Source of the DNA: Rhizobium indicum
GTDB lineage: Bacteria > Pseudomonadota > Alphaproteobacteria > Rhizobiales > Rhizobiaceae
Assembly: GCF_005862305.2 (NCBI RefSeq)
Contig: NZ_CP054024.1
Coordinates: forward strand, 124,001-188,000
DNA length: 64,000 nt
Direction of reading: 5' to 3'
The notes beneath the pieces were generated by a model. That model ran no database searches. It saw nothing but the letters and a program-made list of their open reading frames with translations, and was not told the DNA's origin. Every line of letters starts with the position of its first letter. Position 1 is the stretch's first letter. Position numbers and translations under genes: made by a program. Below, piece by piece: positions 1-16,899 of the stretch.

Positions 1-131
1 CTATGATAATTTTTTTCACTTCTTTTCTCCCCGCTCTTGACGCTGGAAATCCAGCACTTGAACAGGCCGAAGATTGACGCGATACTGGCTCAACTGAAAG
101 AGCAGCTTTAGACGATTTTGAGGGGACCAAT

Positions 132-1631
132 TTGACTAAATGTCGCACCCGCTTTCCCTCCGATATGCTTGTTCTCGATAGAGAAGCCAGCGTTCCGATG
201 CACCGGCAGCTTTACGAGAAGTTGCGCTCAGAAATACTGGCCGGTCGTTTGAAGGCCGACACACGCCTTCCCCCAACTCGTTTGATGGCTGAGGATCTCG
301 GCGTCAGCCGCAACACTGTGATCAGTACCTACGATGCCCTACTCGCTGAGGGTTATCTTGAATCTCGCTCCGGATCGGGCACCTGGGTAGCGACGTTGCC
401 TGCAGATGCTGTGACTGCGCGCAATGCTCTTGACAAGACCGGCGCGCCGTCTCTCTCGTCGCGAGGGTCGAGGATGGCGAAACAGCCTCGAGACCGAACG
501 ATCCCCGGTCACATCGCATTCCATCCCGGATATCCAGAAATCAAAAGCTTTCCCTTCTCGACGTGGGCGCGGCTGCTCAAACGGCACACCCGCTACTCCC
601 AGGAGGACCTCTATGGCTATCACTGGGTCACGGGCCATCCTCGGCTGAAGACAGCGATTGCGGAGTACTTGCAGGCTTCGCGCGGCGTCGATTGCGGACC
701 AGAACAGGTGATCGTTGTCAATGGCACCCAGGCTGCCCTGGACATTCTCGCGCGTGTGCTCGTCGATGAGGGAGACGTCTGCTGGATGGAAGAGCCCGGC
801 TACATTGGCGCTCAGAATGCGCTATTGAGCGCCGGAGCAAGGCTCGTGCCCTTGCCGGTCGGACGGGATGGCTGGTCGCTCGACGATGAGGCTCGCCCAG
901 CGCCGCGCCTGATCTTCGTCACGCCGTCTTGCCAGTGGCCGCTAGGTTGCGTGATGCGCATGGAAGATCGGCTTCGGCTTCTCCAGATCGCCGAAAGGCA
1001 TGATGCCTGGATCGTTGAGGACGACTACGACAGCGAATATCGCTTTCGAGGGCGGCCGATACCGGCGATGCAAGGCTTAGACAAATCCGGCCGCGTGATC
1101 TACATGGGCACGTTTGCCAAGACGCTCTTTCCGTCTCTCAGGATTGGTTTCGTCGTTGTGCCCCCACATCTCGCCGACGGCTTTAAGCGGGTCGCCAGTA
1201 ACACCGGACACTATCCATCTCTCCTGCTGCAGGCGGCGCTCGCCGACTTTATCAGCGAGGGCTACTTCGCCACGCATCTTCGCCGGATGCGGCGCCTCTA
1301 TGCTGAGCGCCAGAAGGTGTTTGTATCAATGTGCCACCACAGTCTCAATCGCTGGCTTTCTATCGAGGAAAGTGACGCCGGTATGCAGCTTGTCGGTCGG
1401 TTCACGCAGGCAGTCGAAGATGAGACGCTTTGGGCCGCAGCACAAAAACAGGGCGTGAACTTCTCACCGCTTTCGCGGCAGTTTTTCAGCAGCCCACCTG
1501 AACAGGGCGCCATACTGGGTTACGCGGGCATCGACCTGAAGGCCATGCGGGAGGGAATTGCCTGCCTGCGAGCGGCATTCATTGATGCTGAAAATAGCGG
1601 CACTTTTGAAAAACAACCGACGTCTGGTTAA
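132..1631 (+). CDS. mocR: MocR/PdxR-family regulator (GntR HTH fused to aminotransferase domain)
   Basis: A 499-residue protein with an N-terminal GntR winged-helix domain (about residues 15-85, with LPPTRLMAEDLGVSRNTV) joined to a fold-type I aminotransferase domain. The PLP lysine lies in GTFAKTLFPSLRIG. This is the MocR/PdxR architecture of PLP-sensing activators. The start is probably TTG at 132, because AGGGGA lies about 9 bases upstream and the next in-frame ATG (165) has no ribosome-binding site. It is followed in the same direction by mocD, mocE and mocF homologues, the rhizopine-catabolism genes for which the MocR family was named. That context, more than sequence alone, suggests it is MocR itself. 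A different MocR-family regulator remains possible. Confidence 0.8.
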   Translation: MTKCRTRFPSDMLVLDREASVPMHRQLYEKLRSEILAGRLKADTRLPPTRLMAEDLGVSRNTVISTYDALLAEGYLESRSGSGTWVATLPADAVTARNALDKTGAPSLSSRGSRMAKQPRDRTIPGHIAFHPGYPEIKSFPFSTWARLLKRHTRYSQEDLYGYHWVTGHPRLKTAIAEYLQASRGVDCGPEQVIVVNGTQAALDILARVLVDEGDVCWMEEPGYIGAQNALLSAGARLVPLPVGRDGWSLDDEARPAPRLIFVTPSCQWPLGCVMRMEDRLRLLQIAERHDAWIVEDDYDSEYRFRGRPIPAMQGLDKSGRVIYMGTFAKTLFPSLRIGFVVVPPHLADGFKRVASNTGHYPSLLLQAALADFISEGYFATHLRRMRRLYAERQKVFVSMCHHSLNRWLSIEESDAGMQLVGRFTQAVEDETLWAAAQKQGVNFSPLSRQFFSSPPEQGAILGYAGIDLKAMREGIACLRAAFIDAENSGTFEKQPTSG

Positions 1632-1793
1632 CCATCTGAGACGTGCTGAGTTCCGGATATGCGTTGTTCAGGACGAATTGCTGCGTACTTTTTTGCGGAA
1701 GAAGTGGTTCTGGAGAAAAGGACGAAGGCGGCTCTAACGAAGGGTCCACTAAACCTCTAGGCTCGTGCCTCAGCATTGCGACGGAGGCAATCC

Positions 1794-2879
1794 ATGGTTT
1801 TAGCGCAAAGAGATTACAGCCTGGTTGGTCGTGGATCGCGAGCTGCGGTTGCGAGTGGACTTGCGGCAGCGGAATGGTATCACACCGACATTCCGCGCAA
1901 GGAGATGAAGGCGCTGATGCAGCGCTCCGATGCGCCGGCGATCCGCGACACGGCCCTCTGGCTCGGTAGTATGGCAGTTTTTGCGGGGCTCGGCATCTAC
2001 TTCTGGGGCTCGTGGATCGCGCTGCCTTTCTTCCTGGCCTACGGTGTGCTTTACGGCTCGGCCTCCGACAGCCGCTGGCACGAATGCGGCCACGGCACCG
2101 CCTTCAAGACGCGATGGATGAACGCTATTGTCTACCAGATCGCCTGCTTCATGATCATGCGCAATCCGGTAACCTGGCGTTGGAGCCATGCGCGCCATCA
2201 CACCGATACGGTGATCGTCGGCCGCGATCCAGAGATCGCCGTCATGCGGCCGCCGGATCTGTTGCGGCTAATCCTCGACTTTTTCGGCATTCTCGATGTC
2301 TGGCACGCAGTTGTGGACATGCTGCGCAATTCCGCTGGCAATGTCTCGGAAGAGGAGAAGACGTTTATCCCGGAGACGGAACAGCGCAAGGTCGTCCGCG
2401 TGGCGCGGATCTGGCTCGCGAGCTATGCAGGGACGATCGCGTTGTCGATGTGGCTCGGCTCGGTCCTGCCACTCCTGTTGATCGGTCTACCTCGACTTTA
2501 TGGTGCGTGGCATGCTGCAATGACGGGCCTGCTCCAGCACGGCGGCCTTGCAGACAACGTAACGGACCACCGCCTGAACAGCCGCACAGTCTACATGAAT
2601 CCGATCAGCCGCTTCATCTATTGGAACATGAACTATCATGTTGAGCATCACATGTTCCCAATGGTGCCTTACCACGCACTACCGAAGCTGCACGCGCTCA
2701 TCAAGCACGACCTGCCGGCACCCAATACCTCCATTATTGATGGCTACCGCGAGATGATCCCGGCCTTTATTCGACAGCTGCGCTACGAGGACTACTACGT
2801 CAAGCGCGAGTTGCCGCCGACGGCGAAACCTTATCATGTGGAACTTCACGGCGCTCAACGCGTGTCCGCCGTCGAGTGA
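1794..2879 (+). CDS. mocD: Fatty-acid-desaturase-fold oxygenase, MocD-like
   Basis: Membrane di-iron oxygenase/desaturase family with the three histidine boxes HECGH, HARHH and HVEHH in order, separated by hydrophobic segments. In the moc cluster of Ensifer meliloti, MocD, MocE and MocF are proposed to remove the O-methyl group of the rhizopine 3-O-methyl-scyllo-inosamine; MocD would be the oxygenase component. The ATG at 1794 was chosen because GGAGG lies 7 bases upstream; a TTG at 1776 in the same frame is less likely. A Rieske ferredoxin and a ferredoxin reductase follow directly, which supports an oxygenase role rather than lipid desaturation. The substrate is inferred from context. Confidence 0.82.
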   Translation: MVLAQRDYSLVGRGSRAAVASGLAAAEWYHTDIPRKEMKALMQRSDAPAIRDTALWLGSMAVFAGLGIYFWGSWIALPFFLAYGVLYGSASDSRWHECGHGTAFKTRWMNAIVYQIACFMIMRNPVTWRWSHARHHTDTVIVGRDPEIAVMRPPDLLRLILDFFGILDVWHAVVDMLRNSAGNVSEEEKTFIPETEQRKVVRVARIWLASYAGTIALSMWLGSVLPLLLIGLPRLYGAWHAAMTGLLQHGGLADNVTDHRLNSRTVYMNPISRFIYWNMNYHVEHHMFPMVPYHALPKLHALIKHDLPAPNTSIIDGYREMIPAFIRQLRYEDYYVKRELPPTAKPYHVELHGAQRVSAVE

Positions 2880-2924
2880 CAGAACACGATCAAGATCGAA
2901 GCGAGACATTCGGATGGAGCAAAC

Positions 2925-3242
2925 ATGAGCCAAGGTTGGGTTGAGGTGTGCGGGGTCGATGATATCGATGAGGAAGACCTCATCCGCTTCGATCATGACG
3001 GGCGCACGTTCGCGGTCTACCGCAGTTCCGATGGTGGTTATTATGCAACGGACGGCTTGTGCACGCATGAGCAAATACATCTGGCTGATGGGCTTGTCAT
3101 GGATGAAATCATCGAATGTCCAAAGCACAATGGCCGCTTCAACTACAAGACTGGCGAGGCAATGGGAGCGCCGGTCTGCGTCAATCTGAAAACCTATCCG
3201 GCGAAGGTGGAGGCCGGGACCGTCTTCATCGCGATTTCGTAA
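2925..3242 (+). CDS. mocE: Rieske [2Fe-2S] ferredoxin, MocE-like
   Basis: A 105-residue soluble protein with the Rieske cluster ligands C-x-H (CTHEQIHLADG) and C-x2-H (CPKHNGRF), separated by 16-20 residues as in bacterial oxygenase ferredoxins. It would carry electrons from the reductase encoded next (3280) to the MocD-like oxygenase upstream. The gene sits 45 bases after mocD and 37 before the next start, consistent with one operon. Its length and motif spacing are normal. Confidence 0.88.
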   Translation: MSQGWVEVCGVDDIDEEDLIRFDHDGRTFAVYRSSDGGYYATDGLCTHEQIHLADGLVMDEIIECPKHNGRFNYKTGEAMGAPVCVNLKTYPAKVEAGTVFIAIS

Positions 3243-3279
3243 TTCGATGACGCGACGCTTCACGCGACGGGGAGGAAAG

Positions 3280-4512
3280 ATGAGTAAGATCATTATAGTC
3301 GGTGGCGGAGAATGCGGAGCAAGGGCCGCGTTTGCTTTAAGGGAGCAAGGTTTTAACGGCGACATCACCCTGATCGGCGCCGAACCACATCTTCCCTATG
3401 AGCGGCCACCACTTTCAAAAACGGGTCTCGCCAGTGCCGCACCGCCTCAATATGTGGCCGGTCCGGCGCGTTACGAAGAGGCCAGGATCACCATTCTAAC
3501 AGGCGTTCCTGTTGACACGGTCGATCGGCAAAGCAAACTGGTGAGGCTCTCCGACGGCCGAAAATTTCCTTATGATCAGCTTCTCCTTGCGACGGGTGCC
3601 CGGCCGCGCCCCTTTGCAGGAGTATCCGGTGATCCAGGTTTGGGGCGCATCTGCATGCTGCGGAACCATGGCGACGCAGTCGCGATCCACGAGGCATTAG
3701 CGCCAGGCAAGAGTCTTGCCGTTGTCGGCGGCGGCTTCATTGGCCTGGAAATTGCTGCGACCGCCCGGAAACTCGGTGCCGAGGTATTACTGATCGAGAG
3801 TTCACCCCGCGTCCTTTCGCGGGGGGTGCCGGCAGAAATCGCGAAGGTCGTCACCGAGCGACACCGGCAGGAGGGTGTGAACATTTTATGCGGTGAGCAA
3901 ATCACATCCATCGCAACTGAAAATGATAAGGTGCAAATTCTCTTTGCGAACGGAACCACCAGACTGGCCGATATTGTTGTCGTCGGCATCGGAGTCATCC
4001 CCAATGTGGAACTTGCCGAGGCTGCTGGACTTTTGATTGACAACGGCATCGCCGTCGATGCCACGCTCAGGACATCAGACCCTGACATCTTTGCCGCTGG
4101 TGATTGTTGCTCGTTTCCACTTTCGCATTATCGCGAACGCCGGGTGCGGCTTGAAGCTTGGCGGAACGCGCAGGATCAGGGAATGCTCGTTGCGGCCAAT
4201 CTGCTGGGCAGGGGCCTCGCAATCGCAAGCGTGCCCTGGTTTTGGTCGGATCAATATGAACTGACGCTTCAGATCGCCGGTCTTTCCGATGGTGCTGCGA
4301 CAACCGTTCGACGCGACCTTGATCAGGGGGCGTTCATCCTCTTTCATCTTGATGGCGAAGATCGCTTGATTGCCGCTAGCGGCATTGGCCCGGGAAACGC
4401 CGTCGCGCGCGATATTCGACTTGCCGAGATGCTAATCGCTGCAAAACGGCGGCTGGACCGGGAAGCGCTTGCTTCCCCAAAAACCAACCTCAAAAAACTA
4501 TTGGCCGCGTAA
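3280..4512 (+). CDS. mocF: FAD-dependent ferredoxin reductase, MocF-like
   Basis: About 410 residues with the N-terminal FAD-binding GGGECGARAA, the ATGARPR motif, the NAD-binding VVGGGFIGLE, and a C-terminal AAGDC motif, in the order of rubredoxin/ferredoxin reductases of Rieske oxygenase systems. The ATG at 3280 has GGGGAGG 5-6 bases upstream and is preferred to the in-frame ATG at 3247. It should transfer electrons from NAD(P)H to the Rieske ferredoxin just upstream, completing a three-component oxygenase. Its assignment as MocF rests on the MocD-E-F gene order. Confidence 0.85.
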   Translation: MSKIIIVGGGECGARAAFALREQGFNGDITLIGAEPHLPYERPPLSKTGLASAAPPQYVAGPARYEEARITILTGVPVDTVDRQSKLVRLSDGRKFPYDQLLLATGARPRPFAGVSGDPGLGRICMLRNHGDAVAIHEALAPGKSLAVVGGGFIGLEIAATARKLGAEVLLIESSPRVLSRGVPAEIAKVVTERHRQEGVNILCGEQITSIATENDKVQILFANGTTRLADIVVVGIGVIPNVELAEAAGLLIDNGIAVDATLRTSDPDIFAAGDCCSFPLSHYRERRVRLEAWRNAQDQGMLVAANLLGRGLAIASVPWFWSDQYELTLQIAGLSDGAATTVRRDLDQGAFILFHLDGEDRLIAASGIGPGNAVARDIRLAEMLIAAKRRLDREALASPKTNLKKLLAA

Positions 4513-4551
4513 AGCTGCCACCATTCACTCTAAAACGTGCTGGAGATTTCC

Positions 4552-5394
4552 ATGAATCATCGCCGCCCGACCGTCGCCGACCTGTTGTCAATCAGAGGTC
4601 ACAGGCAGCTCAGCATGCTGCGGGTCGTCACGCTTGAGGAAGCCGAGGCGGCGGAGAAGGCGGGCATCGATCTCGTCTCGGTTCCTCCGGAACTGCTTGG
4701 CCCCGCCTTTCGCGAGGTGGCCCCAACCGTGTTCGCATTTCCCGGTTTGGATGATCTGATTACTGCTGAGGACTATCTTCGAGCCGCCTTCGAGGCAATT
4801 CGTGCCGGCGGCGACGCTGTCTACTGCGCCGCCGGAATGTCGACCGTGCGACGCCTACGGGAGGAAGGAATCCCGGTCTGTGGCCATGTCGGGCTTATTC
4901 CGTCTAAAGCGACATGGACGGGCGGCTTTCGCGCAGTCGGTAAAACGGCCGCCAGTGCATTTGAGGTCTGGCGTCAGGTGAAAGCTCTCGAGGAGGCCGG
5001 CGCCTTCGCAGCTGAAATCGAGGTAGTGCCTGGCGAGGTCGCTGCGGCGATTTCCAAACGCACATCACTCCTGATGCTTTCCATGGGTGCGGGCACAGGA
5101 TGTGATGCCCAATACCTTTTTGCCGAGGATGTGCTTGGGCAGAACCGGGGTCATTATCCTCGCCATGCTAAAGTCTACCGCGATTTTGCTTCTGAATTCG
5201 ATCGGCTGCATCGGGAGCGTGTGGAAGCGTTCCGCGAATATGCTGAAGACGTGCGATCTGGTGCATACCCAGAGAAGGGGCACTTGGTCAGCATAGCGCC
5301 AGAGGAGCTCGAAGGCTTTCTGAGAAAAGTCGAAAGTGAACAGCCGTTTTCCGCCAACGCAAGAGAATGTCGTGATGGCACCGCAGCGAATTAG
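4552..5394 (+). CDS. PanB-like (ketopantoate hydroxymethyltransferase family) enzyme
   Basis: A 280-residue TIM-barrel type protein of the PanB/PEP-mutase superfamily. Visible matches include VADLLSIRGHRQLSMLRV near the start, GHVGLIPSK near the middle and EVVPGEVAAAI after it, as in ketopantoate hydroxymethyltransferase, but many positions differ from housekeeping PanB. PanB proper uses 5,10-methylene-tetrahydrofolate. The ATG at 4552 is preceded by GGAG and preferred to GTG at 4537. The gene lies between a demethylating oxygenase and purU/folD, so a folate-linked one-carbon reaction on a different acceptor is a reasonable inference. True pantothenate synthesis is an alternative. Confidence 0.6.
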   Translation: MNHRRPTVADLLSIRGHRQLSMLRVVTLEEAEAAEKAGIDLVSVPPELLGPAFREVAPTVFAFPGLDDLITAEDYLRAAFEAIRAGGDAVYCAAGMSTVRRLREEGIPVCGHVGLIPSKATWTGGFRAVGKTAASAFEVWRQVKALEEAGAFAAEIEVVPGEVAAAISKRTSLLMLSMGAGTGCDAQYLFAEDVLGQNRGHYPRHAKVYRDFASEFDRLHRERVEAFREYAEDVRSGAYPEKGHLVSIAPEELEGFLRKVESEQPFSANARECRDGTAAN

Positions 5395-5403
5395 GGATAA
5401 AGC

Positions 5404-6288
5404 ATGACCAATTATGTTTTGACGGTGACGTGCAAGTCGACGCGCGGCATCGTCGCGGCGATTTCGAGCTATCTGGCCGACAGGGGCTGCAACATCATCG
5501 ACAGCTCGCAGTTCGACGATCTCGATACCGGCAAGTTCTTCATGCGCGTCAGCTTCATTTCGGAAGAGGGGCTTTCGGGCGCCGATATCGACGCCGGTTT
5601 CGCGACCGTCGCCGCTCCTTTCGAAATGGATTATGATTTTCACGACAGCGAGAAGCGCATGAAGGTGCTGCTGATGGTGTCGCGTTTCGGCCATTGTCTG
5701 AACGACCTGCTTTACCGCTGGAAGATCGGCGCGCTGCCGATCGATATCGTCGGCGTCGTCTCCAACCATTTCGACTACCAGAAGGTCGTGGTCAACCACG
5801 ACATTCCCTTTCACCATATTCCGGTCACCAAGGCCAACAAGGCGCAGGCCGAGGCCCATATCATGGACGTGGCCGAGCAGACCGGCACCGAGCTGATCGT
5901 GCTCGCCCGCTACATGCAGATCCTGTCGGACGAGATGTGCCAGAAAATGTCCGGGAAGATCATCAATATCCACCATTCCTTCCTGCCGAGCTTCAAGGGC
6001 GCCAATCCTTACAAACAAGCCTATCAACGCGGCGTGAAGCTGATCGGGGCCACGGCGCATTACGTCACCGCCGATCTCGACGAAGGCCCGATCATCGAAC
6101 AGGACACGGCGCGCATCACCCATGCGCAGTCACCCGACGACTATGTCTCGATCGGCCGCGATGTCGAAAGCCAGGTGCTGGCGCGGGCCATCCACGCCCA
6201 TATCCATCACCGCACCTTCATCAACGGCAATCGCACCGTGGTCTTCCCGGCAAGCCCCGGCAGCTTCGCTTCGGAAAGGATGGGGTGA
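5404..6288 (+). CDS. purU: Formyltetrahydrofolate deformylase
   Basis: A 294-residue PurU: an N-terminal ACT domain (about 1-80) and a formyltransferase-like hydrolase domain with IINIHHSFLPSFKGANPY and the GATAHYVTADLDEGPII motif. It hydrolyses 10-formyl-tetrahydrofolate to formate and free folate. It starts 9 bases after the PanB-like gene and is followed at once by a folD remnant. PurU/FolD pairs commonly accompany demethylation operons in rhizobia, where they dispose of excess one-carbon units. By eye its codons are more GC-rich than the flanking genes, suggesting a separate, perhaps chromosomal, origin. It appears complete. Confidence 0.92.
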   Translation: MTNYVLTVTCKSTRGIVAAISSYLADRGCNIIDSSQFDDLDTGKFFMRVSFISEEGLSGADIDAGFATVAAPFEMDYDFHDSEKRMKVLLMVSRFGHCLNDLLYRWKIGALPIDIVGVVSNHFDYQKVVVNHDIPFHHIPVTKANKAQAEAHIMDVAEQTGTELIVLARYMQILSDEMCQKMSGKIINIHHSFLPSFKGANPYKQAYQRGVKLIGATAHYVTADLDEGPIIEQDTARITHAQSPDDYVSIGRDVESQVLARAIHAHIHHRTFINGNRTVVFPASPGSFASERMG

Positions 6289-6291
6289 GGC

Positions 6292-7104
6292 ATGGCGTAT
6301 GTTTTGCTGGGAAAACCAATCGCCGATCGGGTCCTCGATGCAGTGAAGGCAAGGGCAGCTGAGCTTCAGAACACCTCTGGGGTCGAAGCCGGTCGCAGTG
6401 GTCATTCTTGGGGACGATCCGGCTAGCCGTACCTATCTGAACGCCAAAAGCGAGCTGGCCAGCCGGTGTGGCTTCCGTTCGATGCAGTATAATCTTCCTG
6501 CAGAAACCTCACAGGAAGAGCTGCTAGATCGGATAGCGCTGCTGAATGCGGACAAAGTTATCCACGGAATCCTCGTTCAGTTGCCATTGCCGAAACACTT
6601 AGAGCAAGAAGAGATCATCCGGTCTATTCTGCCGGAGAAGGACGTCGATGGCCTGCACGTCGTAAACGCCGGGAAAGTGGCGAGTGGGAATCTCGTTACT
6701 GGACTGGTCTCCTGCACACCGGCCGGTGCTATGATGCTCATTCGGCACGCCGACGGAGACAACCTTTCCGGCTGAATGCTCTTGTCATCGGTCGGCCGTC
6801 CCGAATTGGTTCGCGGTGATTGGCTGAAGCCAGGCGCGACAATCATCGATGTCGGTATAAACCGCGTGCTGGCTCCAGAATAAGGCGAGGCAAGACACGG
6901 CTTGTCGGAGAGGTTGCTTTCAAGGAGGCTGAAAAAGTCGCGGCGGGGATCACGCCCGTTCCAAGAGGTGTCGGGCCTATGACGATCGCCATGCTGATGG
7001 CTAACACTCTAAAATGTGCCGAAGATTCACTTGCGCGTTTTAGCGAGGCATCGAACATGCCGCAGCTTTCGGAGCGCCTGCAGCACTCAGATAGCGATCG
7101 CTGA
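6292..7104 (+). pseudogene. folD: Broken folD (methylene-THF dehydrogenase/cyclohydrolase)
   Basis: FolD would interconvert 5,10-methylene-, methenyl- and 10-formyl-tetrahydrofolate. The reading frame opens well ([19 protein letters not shown]) but shifts near 6380. It resumes as [20 protein letters not shown] and runs through QLPLPKH and [13 protein letters not shown] second one-base shift falls at 6775, in the usual SGLNA site. About 50 residues after VIGR are missing before [17 protein letters not shown] stop follows at 6881, and the conserved end appears as [20 protein letters not shown]. At least three lesions make an active enzyme very unlikely. A chromosomal folD presumably serves the cell. 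Confidence 0.88.
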
Positions 7105-7255
7105 GACTCGGCGTCGCTGACCGAATCTTGTCGCCAATTGGGCGGAGAGACCATTCCCCAGTCGACACTCCTCTCCCCGCCGAGAAACTCACAATCAACT
7201 AACGCGACCTCATGCCTAAACAGGTTGACGGCGCACTTTTTCTAAAACGTAGCAC

Positions 7256-8119
7256 TTAGCCCACATGGGCAACAAGGTCAGTGAGGTCATCGAGATTGAC
7301 TTCGTCGCGCCTGAAGGTGCCAACAACCTTTCCCTGCGAGAGGACAACAAGATCGTCAGCGACCGCTAGGGCGTGCCGGAAGTTATGGGTGATGAAAATG
7401 ACGGCCTGACCTTGGTCGCGGGCAGTGACGATATGATCGAGAACCTTGCCCGCCTGCCGCACCGCTAAGGCCGATGTCGGCTCGTCGAGAATGAGGAGAG
7501 AGGATCCAAAATACATGGCCCTGGCGATAGCGAGCGACTGGCGCTCGCCACCGGATATGTTTGCTCCTCTTTCGTCCAAACCGCGCTCCCAGCGCACGCC
7601 TAACCGATGAAGAGCCGACTGCGCCATTTCATTTGCGCGTTTTAGATCGAGCCATTTGAACGGGCCTAAACCTCGTTGCGGTTCTCGTCCGAGAACGATG
7701 TTACGGGTGACGGAGAGAAGTTCGCAAACCGCCAAATCCTGAAACACCGTGGCGACGCCACGTTCACGCGCGTCCTTCGGATTGCGGAAAACAATGGCTT
7801 CCCCATTGAAGCGCAGCTCGCCGCGATCCGCTGGAAATACTCCGGAAAGGATTTTGATCAACGTGGACTTGCCCGCTCCATTGTCGCCTAAAAGGGCAAG
7901 AATACGACCCGAGTAGGCTTTGAGAGACACATCCACCAACGCCGTGGTCGCGCCAAAGCCCTTCGATAGTCCGATGGCTTCAATGACCGGCACGTCTGCC
8001 GGTTTAATTGGCTCAATCTGGCGCGTGAGCCCCCTCATATCATCGCTGCCGCTGCCTGCGGGTAAGGCACGAGTAGCGACCGCTGCCTGGCTGTCATTAG
8101 AGATCACGTCCTTGCTCAT
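7256..8119 (-). CDS. Sugar-type ABC transporter ATP-binding protein
   Basis: A 287-residue single-domain ATPase with Walker A GDNGAGKST, signature ISGGERQSLAIARA and Walker B LLILDEPTSAL. It resembles FrcA-type ATPases rather than the double-domain RbsA. A stretch of about 40 residues before the domain is unusual. It is the last gene of a binding protein-permease-ATPase operon (six bases separate it from the permease) that faces the moc genes. By position it is likely to import an inositol-like compound or rhizopine, but the substrate is inferred. Confidence 0.88.
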   Translation of the reverse strand: MSKDVISNDSQAAVATRALPAGSGSDDMRGLTRQIEPIKPADVPVIEAIGLSKGFGATTALVDVSLKAYSGRILALLGDNGAGKSTLIKILSGVFPADRGELRFNGEAIVFRNPKDARERGVATVFQDLAVCELLSVTRNIVLGREPQRGLGPFKWLDLKRANEMAQSALHRLGVRWERGLDERGANISGGERQSLAIARAMYFGSSLLILDEPTSALAVRQAGKVLDHIVTARDQGQAVIFITHNFRHALAVADDLVVLSQGKVVGTFRRDEVNLDDLTDLVAHVG

Positions 8120-8125
8120 TTCAAT

Positions 8126-9226
8126 TCATCCGTTCGTGTTCTTGCTGATCGCGGTCTGGGCGTTGATTGCTGCGTCTGCTGTCGAACTGTCCCGACGATA
8201 GCCCGACAAAGGTCGCGACTTTGACATCCGCTTGCTGATCGATGTATTGAGGATGACGGCACCAACCACGATCATTCCGGTGAGGGTCTTGAAGAGATGG
8301 CCCGGGGCTCCCGCGAGAACCAGCCCGACCTGGATCATTCCGAAGGTAACGGCGCCCAGGATCGTTCCAATAACGCTACCATAGCCACCGGAGAGGAGTG
8401 TCCCCCCGATCACTGTCACTGCGACCGCTTGAAGTTCGAAACCTTCGCCCCGCAGCGCATCTACGGATCCAAAGCGTGCAACCTGAATTATTCCTGCGAT
8501 GGCAGCCAGCGCGGAGCAGATCATGAAGACGATGATGGTGACCCTATCGACCGGTACGCCGAGATTCCTGGCCGCGTTCTCGTTCTGGCCCCGTGCTTGG
8601 ATCCAGTTACCGAGTTTCGTACGGGAGAGCAGAAGCGTCCCTGAAAACCCTATCAAGAGAAACCATAACATCGACATACGAAAATCGCTGATCAACGGTC
8701 CGGCCATCGTCGCCCGGAAGCTTGCAGGGATCTCCACCGTCATCGGAAATCCGCCGGTAAGCGCAATCAAAACACCGCGCCAAATGAGCATTGTGCCAAG
8801 CGTCACCACGAAAGAGTGGATGCGGAAACGCACAACCATGTATCCGTTGACCGCCCCCAGCGCTGCGCCGGCGGCGATCGCGACGGCCGATGCCGAAACT
8901 GGATCAAATCCATAATCGCGCATCAATACAACACAAACGTAAGATGTGAGGCCGAGTACAGCGCCGACCGAAAGATCGAAATGACCGCAGATCATCAACA
9001 GCGTCGCGCCGATAGAAACGATCCCGAGTTCAGCAGCGATCGCCATGATGCTGATATAAGTAATCTTGGTCGGAAACAGCTGCGGCGCGAGTAGGGAAAA
9101 CAGGATGAAAAGGATGACAACGGCAGCGACCGATGTTGCTTCAGGCCGAAGCATGAAGCGGCGGAACGCTTCAGCGCAAGCGATGCTGCGTGTAGGGGCG
9201 TGGGCGAGGTGGACTTCGTCGGACAT
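8126..9226 (-). CDS. Sugar-type ABC transporter permease (RbsC family)
   Basis: A 366-residue membrane protein with about ten hydrophobic segments and RbsC-family landmarks such as GHFDLSVGAVLGL and TVIGGTLLSGGYGSVIGT near the C-terminus. It forms the channel for the ATPase (7256) and binding protein (9298) genes that flank it on the same strand. The gap to the binding-protein gene is 71 bases. No truncation is visible. Confidence 0.9.
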   Translation of the reverse strand: MSDEVHLAHAPTRSIACAEAFRRFMLRPEATSVAAVVILFILFSLLAPQLFPTKITYISIMAIAAELGIVSIGATLLMICGHFDLSVGAVLGLTSYVCVVLMRDYGFDPVSASAVAIAAGAALGAVNGYMVVRFRIHSFVVTLGTMLIWRGVLIALTGGFPMTVEIPASFRATMAGPLISDFRMSMLWFLLIGFSGTLLLSRTKLGNWIQARGQNENAARNLGVPVDRVTIIVFMICSALAAIAGIIQVARFGSVDALRGEGFELQAVAVTVIGGTLLSGGYGSVIGTILGAVTFGMIQVGLVLAGAPGHLFKTLTGMIVVGAVILNTSISKRMSKSRPLSGYRRDSSTADAAINAQTAISKNTNG

Positions 9227-9297
9227 TTTGGCCTCCCGCCAAATTGATTAGAAGATTGCGACCCGGCGAAATGACCGGGTCGCTCCCAGACTATCGC

Positions 9298-10311
9298 TCA
9301 ACGATAACCCTTGCCCACCAGCGCCTGAACCTTCTCAACGTTGGTCTTGTCCACGATCGTCGGGCCGGTCAGGAAGTAGTTTCCTTCGAGCAAGCCATAT
9401 TTCAGGTAGTGAGTGAGCAGCAGAACAGGCATGTAGCCGCGCCAGAACTGCTGCTGGTCGATCGTGAAAGCCTGCCGCCCATCACTGATCGCCGTGAGCG
9501 ATTGTGCATTGATGTCGTAGCCGGTCAGGATCAGGTCGTTCCGTCCGCTGTCCGCTTTCGCCGTCAGGAAGCCGTCCACCACGTCACATGTGCTCGTCGC
9601 GGCGACTGTGTCAGGGTTGCGACGCAGATAGTTGGATAGGGTTTCGGCCTGCTGGCCCGGATCCATTGACATTTCCAGGAAGTCCGCCGTGATCCCACCG
9701 GCTTTGAGGGCATCTATTTCGGAGGTTGCACGCAGCTGGCAAGTTGCGTCACCGGGTTGCTGATTGGCAACAACCACGCGTCCTTTTACGCCCATGTCGC
9801 GCAGACGTCGGGCCGACAGCTGTCCGGCGGCGCCTTCGTCAGAACCGGCGCGGAAGAGAAAAATATCGTCCGGCTTTCGAATGTGCGACCCCGGCGGAGG
9901 CGCCGCGGCGCTGCCGAACGCGATCCCGGCTTCTTTGGCTCGTGCAGCCACATCGGCATAGGCGGCGTCGTCGGCGAAAGCGCAAACCGCGATACCGTCC
10001 GCCTGAGCTGCCATGGCTTCCTCGATCTTTTGGATCTGGTTGGGAATTGTCAGCTGGTCGGGATAGATATAGTTGACCTTGACTCCAAGGTTTTTTCCGG
10101 CCTCTTCAGCGCCGCGCGCAAGATAGCCGTGGAAGCCGGTTGGCGCCGCACACCCGACGAAGTAGATGGAAATATTTTCTTCGGCAGATGCAGGTGCTGC
10201 ATTTGAAATGCAGATGAGCATAAGCGCCCATGCCAATGTGCTGGTGGCCGTAAGGGCTTTACTAGCCGACATCATTGCGCAGTTGTTTAGTAGCGGTTTT
10301 AACGCTTGCAT
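9298..10311 (-). CDS. Periplasmic sugar-binding protein of ABC transporter, possibly MocB-like
   Basis: About 337 residues. The N-terminus has a hydrophobic signal segment ending near SNAAPASAEE, followed by a Peripla_BP_4/RbsB-type fold beginning ISIYFVGCAAPTGFHGYL. The ATG at 10311 was chosen because AAGGGA lies 7 bases upstream; the frame extends further upstream without a better start. MocB of Ensifer meliloti is a binding protein of this class, so rhizopine or inositol is a plausible ligand here, but that is inference from the adjacent moc and mos genes. It heads a three-gene transport operon. Confidence 0.88.
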   Translation of the reverse strand: MQALKPLLNNCAMMSASKALTATSTLAWALMLICISNAAPASAEENISIYFVGCAAPTGFHGYLARGAEEAGKNLGVKVNYIYPDQLTIPNQIQKIEEAMAAQADGIAVCAFADDAAYADVAARAKEAGIAFGSAAAPPPGSHIRKPDDIFLFRAGSDEGAAGQLSARRLRDMGVKGRVVVANQQPGDATCQLRATSEIDALKAGGITADFLEMSMDPGQQAETLSNYLRRNPDTVAATSTCDVVDGFLTAKADSGRNDLILTGYDINAQSLTAISDGRQAFTIDQQQFWRGYMPVLLLTHYLKYGLLEGNYFLTGPTIVDKTNVEKVQALVGKGYR

Positions 10312-10800
10312 TGTTGTTCCCTTTGTTCTTCCGCGCAAGTGTAATTCAGTCGCGGGTTTGGGAACATTAGACAGTATTGGGTCGATAAGTAGAACCGTTT
10401 CTGAACGATTTCTTAGGTCCACCTCCGGCCCGTGGCGGCGAGCGTTATCGGAGCTAACGAAAGCCTTTGACGATGAGTGGAGCATGCTGGCAGCACGCAG
10501 GTTTGCGAGGGAGATCGAGCTGGGCATGAGCCGGCAGCCCGTAATTCGTACATTATTGGCGGCGGATCGGTGCGGAAACGCCACATCAGGCAGAGCAAAA
10601 AACGTACGGAGATAGCATTTCGCGAGCACGGTGAACGCGTGCGGCAGAGTAATAAACAGCTCGCGCGAAGACCGCCGTCATACAAATGAGGCCGAACGGG
10701 GCGCGAAAGCCCTCTCCCAGAGATGGAAACCGCAGAACTCAAGATGGGTTTCGACTCACCTGTGTCGGGGCAACTGAAGACAACAATCTGGACATGAGCA
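10312..10800. other. Intergenic region between ABC transporter and mos duplication
   Basis: About 490 bases between the divergent transporter operon and the first NifA site. Open frames here have no recognisable protein signature and run across the binding-protein start. It presumably holds the transporter promoter, but no clear -35/-10 pair or operator palindrome was identified. Confidence 0.5.
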
Positions 10801-10807
10801 CGTCCAA

Positions 10808-10883
10808 TGTCGGACATCCGACACCGCCAAGCGCGAAACTCCCCTTCATTTCCGATGCGGGTCTGGTTGGCACGAGCAGTGCT
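10808..10883 (+). promoter_or_regulatory. NifA site and sigma-54 promoter, copy 1 (before dead mosB copy)
   Basis: TGT-CGGACATCCG-ACA at 10808-10823 is a perfect TGT-N10-ACA activator site. TTGGCACGAGCAGTGCT at 10867-10883 matches the -24 element fully and the -12 element except for one T-to-G. The UAS-promoter spacing of about 44 bases is short for NifA, which usually acts from about 80-150. It drives only the truncated mosB copy that follows. Confidence 0.75.
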
Positions 10884-10928
10884 AAGAGTAGGCCGAGGAT
10901 GCACCAACCAGACAGAGGATAGATAGAG

Positions 10929-11160
10929 ATGCCCTCAAGCCCGAACTTTCGGATTCTCTCTGCAGAGCCCGGCGAAACCCGGACGCTGCATCCGTGGCCG
11001 ATTCTGACGGGAGCGATCTACCGGAAAGTCATCGTGTGTATTTCGCCTGGTGAACTATCCGGCTCGGGTCGGGAAGTCATTACTGAGTTTGAAAAGAAGT
11101 GGAGAATTGGATCGGCAGTGGGCATGTCGTCTCGACAAATAGCGGTACTGCCGCGCCGAT
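10929..11160 (+). pseudogene. Truncated duplicate of the mosB 5' end
   Basis: Encodes the same opening as the intact aminotransferase at 11322 (MPS-PNF, SAEP, TRTLH-WPILTGA-YRKVI). A single-base deletion after FEKK (near 11100) throws it out of frame, and the match ends near 11160. Differences are scattered, so the duplication is not brand new. Together with its own NifA/sigma-54 promoter, this forms a tandem duplication with a period of about 390 bases. Confidence 0.85.
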
Positions 11161-11179
11161 GATAGCACTACACGATCAT

Positions 11180-11262
11180 TGTCCAATGTCGGACATACGA
11201 CGCAGCTCAGTTCGAATTTCCTTTTTATTTTCAATGGAAATCTGGTTGGCACGAGATGTGCT
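11180..11262 (+). promoter_or_regulatory. NifA site and sigma-54 promoter of mosB
   Basis: TGT-CCAATGTCGG-ACA at 11180-11195 is a perfect NifA site. It overlaps the remnant of the copy-1 style site TGT-CGGACATACG-ACG (11187-11202), where the last base is mutated. TTGGCACGAGATGTGCT at 11246-11262 is a sigma-54 promoter 60 bases before the mosB start. This predicts symbiosis-specific expression of mosB and mosC. Confidence 0.78.
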
Positions 11263-11321
11263 CAGTATGGAAGCGGGCAACTTTGACGCCCTGGATGCAC
11301 CAACCCACGGGGATGAATTAA

Positions 11322-12587
11322 ATGCCATCAAAGCCAAACTTTCAGGTTCCCTCTGCGGAGCCAAGCGGAACCCGGACGCTGCATCGGTGGCCGATTTTAA
11401 CGGGAGCGAACTACCGGAAAGTCATCGCGTGTATTTCGTCTGGTGAACTTTCCGGCTCGGGTCTGGAAGTCATTAATGAGTTTGAAAAGAAGGTAGAGAA
11501 TTGGATCGGCGGCGGTCATGTCGTCTCGACAAATAGCGGCACTACCGCGCTGATTGTGGCCCTCCTGACACTCGGCGTTGGGCCGGAAGACGTTGTTCTT
11601 GTGCCTTCCTACACCTGGAGCGCCACTGCATTTGCAGCGACTCTTATCGGCGCCATTCCCCGCTTCGTCGACATTGATAGCGACACCTACAATCTCTCTA
11701 CCGAGGCAGTGGCTAAAGCGATTACGCCGGACGTCAAGGCAATCATCGTCGTTCATATGCATGGCCTGAGCTGCGAAATGGACGAGATTACCGCCATTGC
11801 GCGGGAGAAAGGGGTTCCCATCATTGAGGACTGCGCCCAGGCCCACGGCGCACTCTATAAGAAACAGTATGTTGGGACTCTTTCTGACATCGGCTGCTTC
11901 AGCATGCAGAAAAGCAAGCATTTCTCCGCCGGCGACGGTGGCTTCCTTGTGACGAGAAATGCCGCCCTTGCCCAAAAGGCACGCGATATCTGCAACTTCG
12001 GCCTTCCTACGCCAAAGCATAATTATCACTTTGAGGAGGGGCTGCGCGAAGGATATGCCGTATTTCGTGAGTGCGAGCAGATCGGCGGCATGTTTAGGTT
12101 AAACCCGCTTTCGGCGGCTCTGGTGATCGATCAGCTAGAGCATCTCGATCAACGGATAGAATGGCTCCAGGAGGCTATGAAGCCACTCGTTGCGGAGGCG
12201 GCACAAGTTCCCTTTCTCAAAATCACCCAGCCCGGCTCCCACCAAACGCATGTTTGGCACAAGATCCGCGTCGGTATCGACTATGGGGCAGTCGATCACT
12301 ACGGGAGATCAATGGCGGACATCAGACAAGGGCTGCGCAACACTCTTGCTAGGAGCGGCATTCCGAGCACGCTGTGGACAGCACCTATACTCCCGCTTCA
12401 GAAGGTGTTCAGGCCGTATGCGGGCACGATCGACTGGACCAAAACTGCGGGGCACCTTGCAATCGAAAACTCGTTCATCGTTTTCGACGAGAAGTACCCA
12501 TTGATTGCCCAGGACCCCTCAACCATGACGGCTCTCGTCTCGAAGCTCAGGCAAGTCTGGAGCGATTACTTTGCTTCATTAGAATAG
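11322..12587 (+). CDS. mosB: DegT/DnrJ/EryC1/StrS aminotransferase, MosB-like
   Basis: A 421-residue PLP enzyme of the L-glutamine:scyllo-inosose aminotransferase family. The phosphate-binding region is STNSGTTAL, the carboxylate-bearing motif is IIEDCAQAHGA, and the internal aldimine lysine is K199 in SMQKSKHFSAGDGG. MosB of Ensifer meliloti belongs to this family and is thought to aminate scyllo-inosose to scyllo-inosamine. The gene sits behind a NifA/sigma-54 promoter, as mos genes do, and is followed by a MosC-like transporter. The rhizopine role is therefore well supported by context. A general sugar aminotransferase is the alternative. Confidence 0.85.
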   Translation: MPSKPNFQVPSAEPSGTRTLHRWPILTGANYRKVIACISSGELSGSGLEVINEFEKKVENWIGGGHVVSTNSGTTALIVALLTLGVGPEDVVLVPSYTWSATAFAATLIGAIPRFVDIDSDTYNLSTEAVAKAITPDVKAIIVVHMHGLSCEMDEITAIAREKGVPIIEDCAQAHGALYKKQYVGTLSDIGCFSMQKSKHFSAGDGGFLVTRNAALAQKARDICNFGLPTPKHNYHFEEGLREGYAVFRECEQIGGMFRLNPLSAALVIDQLEHLDQRIEWLQEAMKPLVAEAAQVPFLKITQPGSHQTHVWHKIRVGIDYGAVDHYGRSMADIRQGLRNTLARSGIPSTLWTAPILPLQKVFRPYAGTIDWTKTAGHLAIENSFIVFDEKYPLIAQDPSTMTALVSKLRQVWSDYFASLE

Positions 12588-12667
12588 ACCAGCAACCCAC
12601 GGGCCTGATGGTTCTGGCAGCTCTACGCAGGTCCTGATCCATCTCGACAACGGAAGCGGAGCCTCCA

Positions 12668-13831
12668 ATGAGTAACGCTCGCATATTTGTTCCCCAAACG
12701 CGGGTCATGGCGGTGGCTTTCCAGTTCTTTATAAACGGAGTGGTATATGGCACCTGGGCGACAAACATACTTCATATCCGACGGTCGTTTGGTCTGAGCG
12801 AGTTCGGGCTCAGCATCGTGTTCCTAACAATGGGAGCCGCAGCGGTGTTGATCATGTCGCTCACGGGCTATCTCGTGCAGATTTTCGGGAGCCGGCGGAT
12901 ATCGATCCTGTCCTGCCTATTCTTTCCAGCTGCGCTATGTTTTGTGTTTGTAGCTCCAAACCACATCGCCCTCCTGGTCGGCGTCGGCCTGTTCGGCGCC
13001 GCGAACGGCTCAATGGACGTTTCGATGAACGACCAGGGCACCAATCTTGGTAAGAGAGGAAGCGATCCCGTCATATCGCTACTGCATGGTTTCTCCAGCA
13101 TTGGAGCGCTTGCGGGTTCACTTCTGTCCTACTGGTGGATTGGTAGAGGCTATCATCCGCTGGTCCAGGCCATTGCCTTGCTGGTTGGCACTCTAATGCT
13201 TTCTTGGCGACTCTTCCCACACCTTGATCTGGACGCTGATCGGAGCAGGATCAGTCTGCAGTTAGGGGCATTGGGCAACGGCAGGCTCATTTTGCTCGGA
13301 TTCCTGTCATTCCTCACCATGATGAGCGATGGAGCAATCGCCGATTGGAGCACGATCTATCTAGAGGACTACTGGCCGACGTCGCCTCAGACTGCCGTCC
13401 TGGGTTACCTGGCCTTTGCGGTCTTTATGATCGTCGGCCGGATCTCAGGAGACCGCATCGGAAGCGTTATCGGTGATCGCGCCATGATTGCGATTAGCGG
13501 CGGCCTCATGTCGGCGGGCATGACAATAGCATTGTCAATCCCGTTTTTCGCAGCTGCGCTCGCCGGCTTTTCCTTACTGGGCATAGGCATGGCTAACCTG
13601 GTGCCTATCATCTTCAGAAATGCAAGTGAGATGGTGCCAGACGGTCTCGGGATCGCATTTGTGTCGGTCTGCGGCTATTCCGGATTTCTCGTCGGTCCAC
13701 CCATTATTGGTGGCGCGGCCGGCGCAGTGGGGCTCAACAAAGCCTTGCTGATCGTCAGTGCGGTCGGAGCGACGCTGGCGTTTGCATCGGTCCTTTTTCA
13801 AGGACGCAAACGCCCACCCGCTTCAGGCTGA
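12668..13831 (+). CDS. mosC: MFS transporter, MosC-like
   Basis: A 387-residue membrane protein with about twelve hydrophobic segments and major-facilitator features (FFINGVVYGTWATNI in the first helix, a GRISGDRIG loop in the second half). It lies 80 bases after mosB on the same strand. In Ensifer meliloti the gene after mosB encodes a membrane transporter of this type, thought to export the rhizopine. The substrate is inferred. mosA is absent from the expected place upstream of mosB. Confidence 0.82.
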   Translation: MSNARIFVPQTRVMAVAFQFFINGVVYGTWATNILHIRRSFGLSEFGLSIVFLTMGAAAVLIMSLTGYLVQIFGSRRISILSCLFFPAALCFVFVAPNHIALLVGVGLFGAANGSMDVSMNDQGTNLGKRGSDPVISLLHGFSSIGALAGSLLSYWWIGRGYHPLVQAIALLVGTLMLSWRLFPHLDLDADRSRISLQLGALGNGRLILLGFLSFLTMMSDGAIADWSTIYLEDYWPTSPQTAVLGYLAFAVFMIVGRISGDRIGSVIGDRAMIAISGGLMSAGMTIALSIPFFAAALAGFSLLGIGMANLVPIIFRNASEMVPDGLGIAFVSVCGYSGFLVGPPIIGGAAGAVGLNKALLIVSAVGATLAFASVLFQGRKRPPASG

Positions 13832-16443: not shown

Positions 16444-16446
16444 CCA

Positions 16447-16899
16447 ATGGCCGAGTGGAAAAACATTATTGGTGCGCTCGTCGTTGCGGCCTTCGGTGGC
16501 TCAGTCCACCAGGCGGGCAATCTCTTCGTTTTAAGTCGATCGCTCGTCGTTGATTCCACCCGCGCCCCGATGCCCATTCCTTCCTGCGCAATGACACAGG
16601 CAGCACTTAGCTACGAGGTGAATTGTTCGACTTGCCACGGCGCTCGGGGCGAAGGCATCGAGTCAATGATCCCATCGCTTGCCGGGAATGGTGTCCCTAA
16701 GGCTAAGCATCTGATTGAAATGATCATTGCCGGCACAACCGGCGGGCAGGGGGGAGTTCACATGCCGCCGTTTGGGTGGAAAATGAGCAATGAAGAAATC
16801 GCGCGACTGGCAAATTACGTTCTCAGCAACTGGGGCGGTGCCGCCATTTGCGTCACAGCTGAAGATGTCGCCAACGTGCGAGAGGCACTCCCGGGGTGA
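16447..16899 (+). CDS. Mono-haem cytochrome c, probable dehydrogenase electron-transfer subunit
   Basis: A 150-residue protein with a hydrophobic N-terminus and one haem site CSTCHGARGEG; a possible axial Met lies in VHMPPFGWKMS. It starts three bases after the GMC subunit, so the two are almost certainly translated together. The usual third subunit of gluconate dehydrogenase is a larger tri-haem cytochrome, so a single-haem version is a simplified arrangement. Confidence 0.85.
   Translation: MAEWKNIIGALVVAAFGGSVHQAGNLFVLSRSLVVDSTRAPMPIPSCAMTQAALSYEVNCSTCHGARGEGIESMIPSLAGNGVPKAKHLIEMIIAGTTGGQGGVHMPPFGWKMSNEEIARLANYVLSNWGGAAICVTAEDVANVREALPG

Follow-up and report, generated by a model that had tools for sequence, protein, structure and literature searches.

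Gene content and the catabolic side

The window analysed here, 64,000 nucleotides of Rhizobium indicum DNA, opens inside a full rhizopine locus on a symbiosis plasmid of the R. leguminosarum/R. indicum type (a pea-nodule bacterium). Rhizopine is a rare nutrient derived from inositol, made within nodules and consumed outside them. The initial annotation had named homologues of mocR, mocD, mocE, mocF, a sugar-type ABC transporter, mosB and mosC, all of which are present about where it placed them; the locus exceeds that region at both ends, with mocB, mocA, a YdjC-like gene, a Gfo/Idh gene and mocC upstream and mosDEF downstream. All seven moc genes (mocCABRDEF) were found, mocR divergent from mocB and mocCAB just outside the window in an upstream stretch, L009. 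Identities to S. meliloti are given below, with strains RCAM1115 and BL225C as stand-ins for L5-30; those of MocD, MocE, MocF, MosB and MosC are to the mos-moc products of RCAM1115 and support the proposed homologies, as does the score of MocR against the NCBIfam MocR equivalog NF052281 (cut-off 650).

L009 13949-14836, plus strand: mocC/iolE-like gene, 84% to S. meliloti mocC
L009 15172-16176, plus strand: second Gfo/Idh gene, syntenic with the S. meliloti locus
L009 16806-17699, minus strand: YdjC-like deacetylase gene, syntenic with the S. meliloti locus
L009 17877-18797, minus strand: mocA, syntenic, 80% to S. meliloti mocA
1..19, minus strand: 5' end of mocB (the rest in L009 19090-20000), syntenic, 89% to S. 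meliloti mocB
132..1631, plus strand: mocR, GntR/aminotransferase-type regulator, NF052281 760.8 bits, 87% to S. meliloti
1794..2879, plus strand: mocD, desaturase-type oxygenase, PF00487, 76-82% to S. meliloti
2925..3242, plus strand: mocE, Rieske ferredoxin, 83% to S. meliloti
3280..4512, plus strand: mocF, ferredoxin reductase, 72% to S. meliloti
4552..5394, plus strand: panB-like gene, under both PanB cut-offs (123 bits against 272, 102 against 207.6)
5404..6288, plus strand: purU, formyltetrahydrofolate deformylase, 428 bits against a cut-off of 223
6292..7104, plus strand: folD remnant with a broken reading frame, catalytic-domain match in 6398-6775

MocC scores above the IolE equivalog cut-off (394.7 against 290), and in the mocDEF loci compared the panB-like gene adjoins mocF. 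About 12 kb from mocB lies a paralogue of it without its 5' end. The start of mocR is annotated at 198 in a near-identical record, and the folD region carries no CDS in a 100%-identical record whose gene table omits pseudogenes.

The genes mocDEF had been offered as evidence for rhizopine; they are indeed present, but by themselves they say little. Relatives of MocF occur in 247 plasmid records (E <= 1e-100), so that mocDEF-panB-purU is not diagnostic alone, whereas MocR at 80% identity or more is found in 13. These 13 comprise one Phyllobacterium plasmid and the 12 plasmid records that hold both MosB (over 96-100% of its length) and MosE (at least 76%). NGR234 encodes MocDEF-PanB-PurU with no match to MocR, MocB or mos within about 8 kb on each side, which rules out mocDEF as proof of rhizopine, and PMC3538637, in the parts available, places mocDEF of several rhizobia next to LacI-type regulators.

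Synthesis genes and their promoters

The initial annotation had also proposed a synthesis operon, which stands for mosB and mosC but had been drawn too short: mosDEF (14051-16899) had been missed, and the operon is mosBCDEF, in the order seen in S. meliloti RCAM1115. According to the available text of PMC6668481, these five genes in this order are common to all tested producers of 3-O-methyl-scyllo-inosamine (3-O-MSI). The genes mosDEF correspond to the published ononitol dehydrogenase.

10802..11160, plus strand: tandem duplicate of the mosB promoter and 5' end, 79% identical to 11181-11554
10808..10823, plus strand: NifA upstream site of the distal promoter, TGT-N10-ACA
10868..10883, plus strand: sigma-54 -24/-12 element of the distal promoter, 11/12 consensus positions
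11180..11195, plus strand: NifA upstream site of the proximal promoter, TGT-N10-ACA
11247..11262, plus strand: sigma-54 element of the proximal promoter, 11/12 consensus positions
11322..12587, plus strand: mosB, aminotransferase, PF01041, 72% to S. meliloti mosB
12668..13831, plus strand: mosC, MFS transporter, PF07690, 52% to S. meliloti mosC
14051..14614, plus strand: mosD, gluconate 2-dehydrogenase subunit 3 family, PF13618, 79% to S. meliloti
14659..16443, plus strand: mosE, GMC oxidoreductase, 77% to S. meliloti
16447..16899, plus strand: mosF, cytochrome c, PF13442, 32% to S. meliloti at the same place

Best matches of the aminotransferase and the MFS protein to unrelated families would have spoken against their assignment. 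The best full-length matches of MosB outside Rhizobium are instead S. meliloti and S. kummerowiae mosB, at about 72%, and the next such matches, among those listed, fall to about 29%; MosC is related to its positional counterpart in S. meliloti.

Signals for NifA and sigma-54 had been noted ahead of mosB, and the scan recovered two pairs there, using consensus patterns of the NifA site and the sigma-54 element. Two NifA/sigma-54 promoters are predicted in tandem ahead of the gene, and behind the first of them lies a truncated mosB copy whose coding part runs out of frame past a one-base gap. Three such pairs occur in the window; 40 Markov-shuffled windows averaged 0.075 and never exceeded 2. 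Sigma-54 elements alone are also enriched (7 against 0.76 expected), whereas TGT-N10-ACA alone shows no enrichment in the window (10 against 7.4). The gene mosA is absent from the locus: of 18 DHDPS-family matches genome-wide, only one lies on C4, a fragment (64278-64442) that falls outside the locus. In L5-30 mosA adjoins mosB, and the available text of PMC6668481 describes it as not widely distributed.

Compared gene by gene, the locus is syntenic with those of R. bangladeshense, R. lentis, R. leguminosarum Vaf-46 and the S. meliloti strains RCAM1115 and BL225C. The two S. meliloti loci share mosBCDEF, mocDEF-panB-purU, mocR divergent from mocBA, the YdjC-like gene, the second Gfo/Idh gene and mocC. 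Their mos and mocDEF operons converge, however, and AbcSPA was not found in them, whereas in the window mocDEF-panB-purU and mos are co-oriented, AbcSPA lying between them on the opposite strand. The folD remnant, the duplicated mosB promoter and the identities of MosB, MosC and MosF (72, 52 and 32%) also set the window apart. This agrees with the earlier description of a closely linked mos/moc set, rearranged and extended; the extension is an ABC transporter.

The AbcSPA transporter

The locus is of a known kind; its new part is the transporter AbcSPA (7256-10311, minus strand), a complete set of solute-binding protein (SBP), permease and ATPase divergent from mosB.

7256..8119, minus strand: AbcA, ABC ATPase with a single nucleotide-binding domain, PF00005
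8126..9226, minus strand: AbcP, CUT2-type permease, PF02653
9298..10311, minus strand: AbcS, CUT2-type solute-binding protein, PF13407

AbcS scores 137.9 bits against NF052284 ('rhizopine catabolism ABC transporter SBP'). Because this falls far below the cut-off of 420, AbcS is not filed as a member, and the profile is ruled out as proof that AbcS binds rhizopine. MocB itself reaches only about 40 bits, while both SBPs tested from MocR-adjoining loci of the order pass; the name of the profile seems to rest on genes adjoining MocR, not on MocB. Nor is AbcS MocB: their NCBIfam profiles and solved-structure matches differ. The modelled fold of AbcS matches sugar- and inositol-binding proteins, although SBP folds do not fix the ligand.

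Within the genus (148 genomes), AbcS accompanies mosB in all four genomes that carry it and is absent from the other 144, a co-occurrence that is partly plain linkage and rests on four genomes. At 60% identity, AbcSPA was found in none of eight Sinorhizobium mosB records. It could be an unrelated sugar transporter, inserted between mocDEF-purU and mosB and without a role in rhizopine use, a reading we consider unlikely. Its position is conserved in R. bangladeshense at 86-90% identity, while MosB there is 75%, and in another family of the order a close relative (AbcS 73%, AbcP 75%, AbcA 79%) adjoins a MocR equivalog (726.8 bits, cut-off 650) in a locus without mosC-F; both points argue against a chance arrival. 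Its low NF052284 score would fit one, as would its many close relatives (119 others among the matches listed, 72-89% identical, largely from metagenomes and counted by sequence) and a Ti plasmid relative of AbcS (51%) that adjoins a LacI gene and an amidohydrolase gene, not MocR. So too would the split frames of AbcS and AbcP, each over two frames, in the R. lentis record and of AbcP in RCAM2802, where mocR, panB and purU are split too; these are either sequencing errors or decay.

A moc-box-like site ahead of AbcS, found both here and in R. bangladeshense, likewise speaks against an unrelated transporter. The motif is that published in PMC10107442, as given in the available part of that paper, and we scanned 84 kb for it.

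99..133, minus strand: moc-box pair upstream of mocB (two 11-mers, 13 bp apart), matrix rank 1 in 84 kb (in the training set), consensus-only rank 2-3
1701..1735, plus strand: moc-box pair upstream of mocD, matrix rank 2 in 84 kb (in the training set), consensus-only rank 1
10391..10425, minus strand: candidate moc-box pair 79 nt before the AbcS start, weak by consensus alone

The gap from pair to start is 79 nt at both AbcS and mocB. A first matrix, trained on six mocB and mocD sites, ranked the AbcS site sixth in the 84 kb. A second, retrained on 11 sites from other loci that score best upstream of MocR (and so mildly circular) and excluding AbcS, ranked it fourth, with a chance of about 0.002 per 200 bp. 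The site is the best in the scanned stretches of Vaf-46 and R. bangladeshense, which hold AbcS but neither the mocB nor the mocD promoter. Against the published consensus it matches 16/22 positions, tying with four other sites in the 84 kb and standing below three; the match is weak in the window and stronger in R. bangladeshense. The motif is loose, since of 19 distant loci only 7 have the best matrix match upstream of MocR.

AbcSPA might instead serve synthesis, bringing a precursor (ononitol or inositol) into bacteroids under NifA control together with mosBCDEF. The intergenic region it shares with mosB, its restriction within the genus to genomes with mosB and the modelled resemblance of AbcS to sugar- and inositol-binding proteins would suit such a role, but we think it quite unlikely: every sigma-54 element found in the shared region points towards mosB, none matching at least 9/12 positions was found there on the AbcS strand, and L5-30 makes 3-O-MSI (PMC6668481, in the part available) while the S. 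meliloti loci compared lack AbcSPA. Relatives of AbcSPA moreover adjoin MocR, often with IolE-like genes, in loci without mosC-F; among 18 further loci of the order without mosC-F or mocDEF, 11 have such a transporter next to MocR. That the locus is a decaying relic in which synthesis or catabolism no longer works, as the folD remnant, the truncated mosB copy, the mocB paralogue without its 5' end and the split frames in relatives might suggest, is very improbable: the core mos and moc frames are open in this genome, R. lentis and Vaf-46 have most of them unsplit at 93-100% identity, and folD is not part of the published mos and moc sets.

Proposed working, origin and meaning

Taken jointly, the findings make it likely that this is a complete rhizopine locus, for synthesis and catabolism; our proposal that AbcSPA is a MocR-induced rhizopine importer is reasonably likely. 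In nitrogen-fixing bacteroids, NifA and sigma-54 would turn on mosBCDEF from the two tandem promoters. MosDEF would oxidise plant ononitol to 3-O-methyl-scyllo-inosose and MosB would transaminate this to 3-O-MSI, activities that are published for S. meliloti and predicted by homology for the proteins here; MosC is probably the exporter. Free-living kin would import the rhizopine, and MocR would sense it and activate mocBA, mocDEF and, we propose, the AbcSPA operon. MocDEF would take off the O-methyl group as a one-carbon unit, plausibly passed to the folate-dependent PurU and the PanB-like enzyme, and MocA, the second Gfo/Idh enzyme, the YdjC-like hydrolase and MocC would lead on to inositol catabolism. 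AbcSPA would be a dedicated rhizopine or aminocyclitol importer, providing membrane parts of the kind for which MocB has no neighbouring genes in the S. meliloti loci compared. Because those loci lack AbcSPA and L5-30 is reported to grow on 3-O-MSI (PMC6668481, in the part available), AbcSPA is probably not essential in general.

The hybrid of MocB and IntBC in PMC10107442, as its available text presents it, likewise gives CUT2-type import of scyllo-inosamine, but was engineered from MocB and the membrane parts of an inositol transporter, whereas the putative importer AbcSPA occurs naturally as a full SBP-permease-ATPase set and belongs to a different CUT2 branch. In the available text of PMC2597717, the SMb20712-4 operon of S. 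meliloti 1021, annotated as a putative rhizopine transporter, is the myo-inositol importer. Among open-access papers, the available parts of PMC6668481, PMC10107442, PMC3538637, PMC2597717, PMC3454389, PMC5852556, PMC5320631, PMC4653623 and PMC9249168 describe neither an ABC permease from a mos-moc locus nor a deacetylase; AbcSPA may be drawn in the supplementary figures of rhizopine loci (Fig. 5 of PMC6668481, Fig. S1 of PMC10107442).

Loci of the order with MocR (NF052281) and an NF052284-type protein share the MocR neighbourhood, the AbcS-P-A gene order, the single-domain ATPase, often an IolE-like MocC and sometimes YdjC; mosC-F and mocDEF are unmatched within the stretches compared, and AbcS is only 25-30% identical, save at the one locus with 73%. 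Phyllobacterium zundukense Tri-48 shares mocC, Gfo/Idh, YdjC, mocA, mocB, mocR, mocDEF, panB and purU. It differs in that no mos gene is annotated in the 35 kb compared, the record yields no MosE match at or above 60%, and its ATPase-permease pair is a different one (36% identity to AbcA, 29% to AbcP). A module of MocR, an IolE-like MocC, an AbcSPA-type importer and sometimes a YdjC-like hydrolase or DegT aminotransferase recurs through the order in loci that have neither mosC-F nor mocDEF. R. bangladeshense keeps AbcS-P-A-YdjC, its YdjC being 72% identical to that of a mos-less module and the old YdjC gone, whereas in the lineage of the window both AbcSPA and the old YdjC are present. We tentatively suggest, at somewhat less than even confidence, that rhizopine use is a specialised outgrowth of this older, widespread module for MocR-controlled aminocyclitol catabolism, that an importer and its YdjC gene were grafted from such a module into the Rhizobium rhizopine locus, and that the YdjC step would be a required but unnamed part of rhizopine catabolism.

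Plant-controlled signalling towards nitrogen-fixing bacteria is being built with rhizopine, whose uptake is a limiting step: the published sensor uses inositol-transporter membrane proteins whose overexpression harms growth (PMC10107442, available part). If our reading is true, AbcSPA would offer such signalling a direct test case, as well as a candidate part, in the form of a complete natural importer linked to MocR, the YdjC-like and second Gfo/Idh genes, beyond the published moc set, would be likely steps of the pathway, and MocR would serve a wider aminocyclitol catabolism.

Gene content of the rhizopine locus

The window (bases 124001–188000) lies on contig C4, which accounts for 313,895 bp of a 7.5-Mb genome. 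Over its first 14 kb it matches two plasmids from pea at 100% identity, pPR13E04 of Rhizobium indicum and one of R. leguminosarum, and two further plasmids, from Lathyrus and lentil, at 98.6–98.9%. The genes run in the order mocR, mocD, mocE, mocF, a panB-like gene, purU, a broken folD, an ABC transporter on the opposite strand (AbcSPA, divergent from mosB), mosB, mosC and mosDEF, with cbb3 oxidase genes from 17764 on.

AbcA, ATPase: 7256–8119, minus strand
AbcP, permease: 8126–9226, minus strand
AbcS, solute-binding protein (SBP): 9298–10311, minus strand
mosD, mosE and mosF, after mosC: 14051–16899

This content bears out the initial annotation, which placed mocR, mocD, mocE and mocF homologues and an ABC transporter beside mosB and mosC and read them as a rhizopine locus. 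The system is of a known kind and extends beyond the stretch then described, with mosDEF after mosC and further moc genes upstream of the window. The order of mosDEF is that of S. meliloti, following mosC as in RCAM1115 and BL225C, and identities to the S. meliloti proteins are 79, 77 and 32%, respectively. MosDEF is reported as an ononitol dehydrogenase, and all rhizobia found to make 3-O-MSI are reported to have mosBCDEF (Geddes et al. 2019, PMC6668481). Upstream, the same contig encodes mocB, mocA, a YdjC-like (ChbG/HpnK-type) deacetylase, a second Gfo/Idh oxidoreductase and mocC, so the published set mocCABRDEF is present in full; mocR is divergent from mocB, as it is in S. meliloti.

Two further genes deserve mention. 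The panB-like gene (4552–5394), which accompanies mocF in the loci we compared, scores under both PanB cut-offs and may serve another one-carbon role. Another mocB-like gene, with about 76% identity to mocB and about 12 kb away from it, is found in the upstream part of the same plasmid (L009, 6336–7190), in RCAM2802 (L092, 211–1140) and in R. lentis (L045, 17503–18402); it is full length in the latter two and lacks its 5′ part in the first.

Promoters of mosB and the moc-boxes

The NifA/sigma-54 signals that had been noted before mosB are indeed there, as two NifA-type sites, each followed after 44 or 51 bp by a sigma-54 element matching 11 of 12 consensus positions. The window holds three such pairs, against a mean of 0.075 and a maximum of two in 40 shuffled windows; the third (sigma-54 element 11/12) lies at 56877–56972 on the plus strand. 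The two mosB promoters are halves of a tandem duplication (10802–11160 and 11181–11554, 79% identical), the first of which finishes with a shortened copy of the start of mosB that has a gap of one base. This duplicate is common to R. lentis, Vaf-46 and RCAM2802, and R. bangladeshense likewise carries two sigma-54 elements, of which the proximal alone is preceded by NifA sites, and these overlap.

The moc-box is described as a direct repeat of two 11-mers separated by 13 bp, with a scyllo-inosamine response shown for the mocB and mocD promoters (Haskett et al., PMC10107442). We found pairs before both genes and a weaker candidate before AbcS, 79 nt from the start codon, a gap equal to that at mocB.

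moc-box pair before mocB: 99–133
moc-box pair before mocD: 1701–1735
candidate moc-box pair before AbcS: 10391–10425

With a matrix trained on mocB and mocD boxes from three species, the AbcS site ranks sixth in the 84 kb formed by the window and L009, and 20 random sites score as high in 3.36 million positions. Applied to Phyllobacterium, which was outside the training set, the four best matches of this matrix precede mocB, ggt, mocD and mocC. A second matrix, which adds 11 distant sites, places the AbcS site fourth in the 84 kb (12 chance matches in 2.52 million positions) and first in two stretches that exclude the mocB and mocD promoters, 20 kb of Vaf-46 and 21 kb of R. bangladeshense, where it scores 20.0 and no chance match is as high. 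By consensus alone the site is unremarkable in the window, matching 16 of 22 positions, under three other sites and tied with four. No sigma-54 element of at least 9/12 was found pointing at AbcS. Weighing the matrix ranks and the absence of such an element together with the weak consensus match, we consider MocR control of AbcSPA likely.

Other moc-box pairs were also uncovered. In Phyllobacterium zundukense Tri-48 (L047), a pair at 2239–2273 (33.5 bits) precedes a gamma-glutamyltransferase gene (310–2052, minus strand), which suggests that ggt belongs to the MocR regulon of that strain. A pair also precedes mocC, both in S. meliloti RCAM1115 (L008, 36966–37000, 26.9 bits) and in our plasmid (L009, 13827–13861, 14.7 bits), whereas L5-30 mocC is reported to be constitutive (PMC10107442).

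Distribution of AbcSPA and the diagnostic genes

MosB (E ≤ 1e-80) occurs in four of 148 genomes of the genus and AbcS (E ≤ 1e-40) in the same four, co-occurrences that are not independent because the genes are linked. One of the four, assigned to R. bangladeshense, keeps the order and orientation of the window; its MosB is 75% and its AbcS 88% identical. The 12 plasmid records that carry MosB comprise four from Rhizobium, all with an AbcS of at least 60% identity, and eight from Sinorhizobium, none with one, and two S. meliloti loci compared in full (RCAM1115 and BL225C) contain no AbcSPA match. Counting against the importance of AbcSPA, AbcS and AbcP are each broken across two frames in one R. 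lentis record (L044). In RCAM2802, abcP is likewise broken, as are mocR, panB and purU; the split frames in these two may be sequencing errors or decay.

AbcS is not MocB, as their profile matches differ: AbcS scores 138 bits against NF052284, the NCBIfam family named rhizopine SBP, and weakly against other families, and the families that MocB matches best are those binding galactose and ribose. AbcSPA-like sets also occur on Ti plasmids (pTi-SAKURA, L038 10788–16996, 51–59% identical; L046 6788–12992), adjoining LacI, amidohydrolase and VOC-family genes.

Across 72,556 plasmid records surveyed for MosB, MosE, MocR and MocF, MosB was found in 12 (at least 71.8% identity over 96–100% of its length). 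All MosE matches of at least 76% fall in these 12, each of which has one, and MocR of at least 80% occurs in them and in one Phyllobacterium plasmid, where the 35-kb stretch contains moc genes without any annotated mos gene. Five more S. meliloti records among the matches listed carry a partial mosB in two pieces; in one, SM11, the stretch examined yielded no further mos or moc gene. MocF relatives (E ≤ 1e-100), in contrast, occur in 247 records, and NGR234 has MocDEF-PanB-PurU with no other rhizopine part nearby. MocR, MosB and MosE are therefore diagnostic of a rhizopine locus, and mocDEF is not.

A wider MocR module

Of 397 genomes of the order, 18 have a match to the MocR equivalog NF052281 at E ≤ 1e-180, and in 17 the match exceeds the family cut-off. 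We compared 18 MocR loci (three under 20 kb) besides the window and L052, a locus from another family of the order found through its AbcS. An AbcS-AbcP-AbcA set adjoins MocR in 11 of the 18, an IolE-like MocC is present in 12, a YdjC-like gene in four and a DegT aminotransferase likewise in four; none has a mosC-F or mocD-F match. Both SBPs tested from these loci exceed the 420-bit cut-off of NF052284 (494 and 434 bits). That family thus fits two MocR-adjacent SBPs and not MocB (about 40 bits), and its name may mislead annotation, MocB being the published rhizopine SBP.

In L052, AbcS, AbcP and AbcA (73, 75 and 79% identical) adjoin genes for a MocR equivalog, a YdjC-like protein and a DegT aminotransferase, with no mosC-F or mocDEF. 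The YdjC-like gene that follows AbcA in R. bangladeshense shares 72% identity with its L052 counterpart and 43% with the gene of the window locus, which is flanked by mocA and the second Gfo/Idh gene. R. bangladeshense has none in that position, and our 84 kb contain only the mocA-adjacent copy, none of the R. bangladeshense/L052 type. From these identities and positions, AbcSPA seems to have travelled with YdjC, the window and R. bangladeshense loci each retaining one YdjC, which suggests that a YdjC step is needed in the pathway.

For S. meliloti, the chemistry of MosDEF and MosB, control by NifA, the response of MocR to scyllo-inosamine and the induction of mocB and mocD have been reported (PMC6668481, PMC10107442). 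Here, the complete gene set, the promoter elements and the transporter with its distribution are established at the level of sequence. By extension, the strain would make and use rhizopine, AbcSPA would import it under MocR, the one-carbon product of MocDEF would pass to folate enzymes, and YdjC and the second Gfo/Idh enzyme would act in the rhizopine pathway. The locus is thus a known rhizopine system; what is new is the probable importer, its probable regulation and the link to a wider MocR module.
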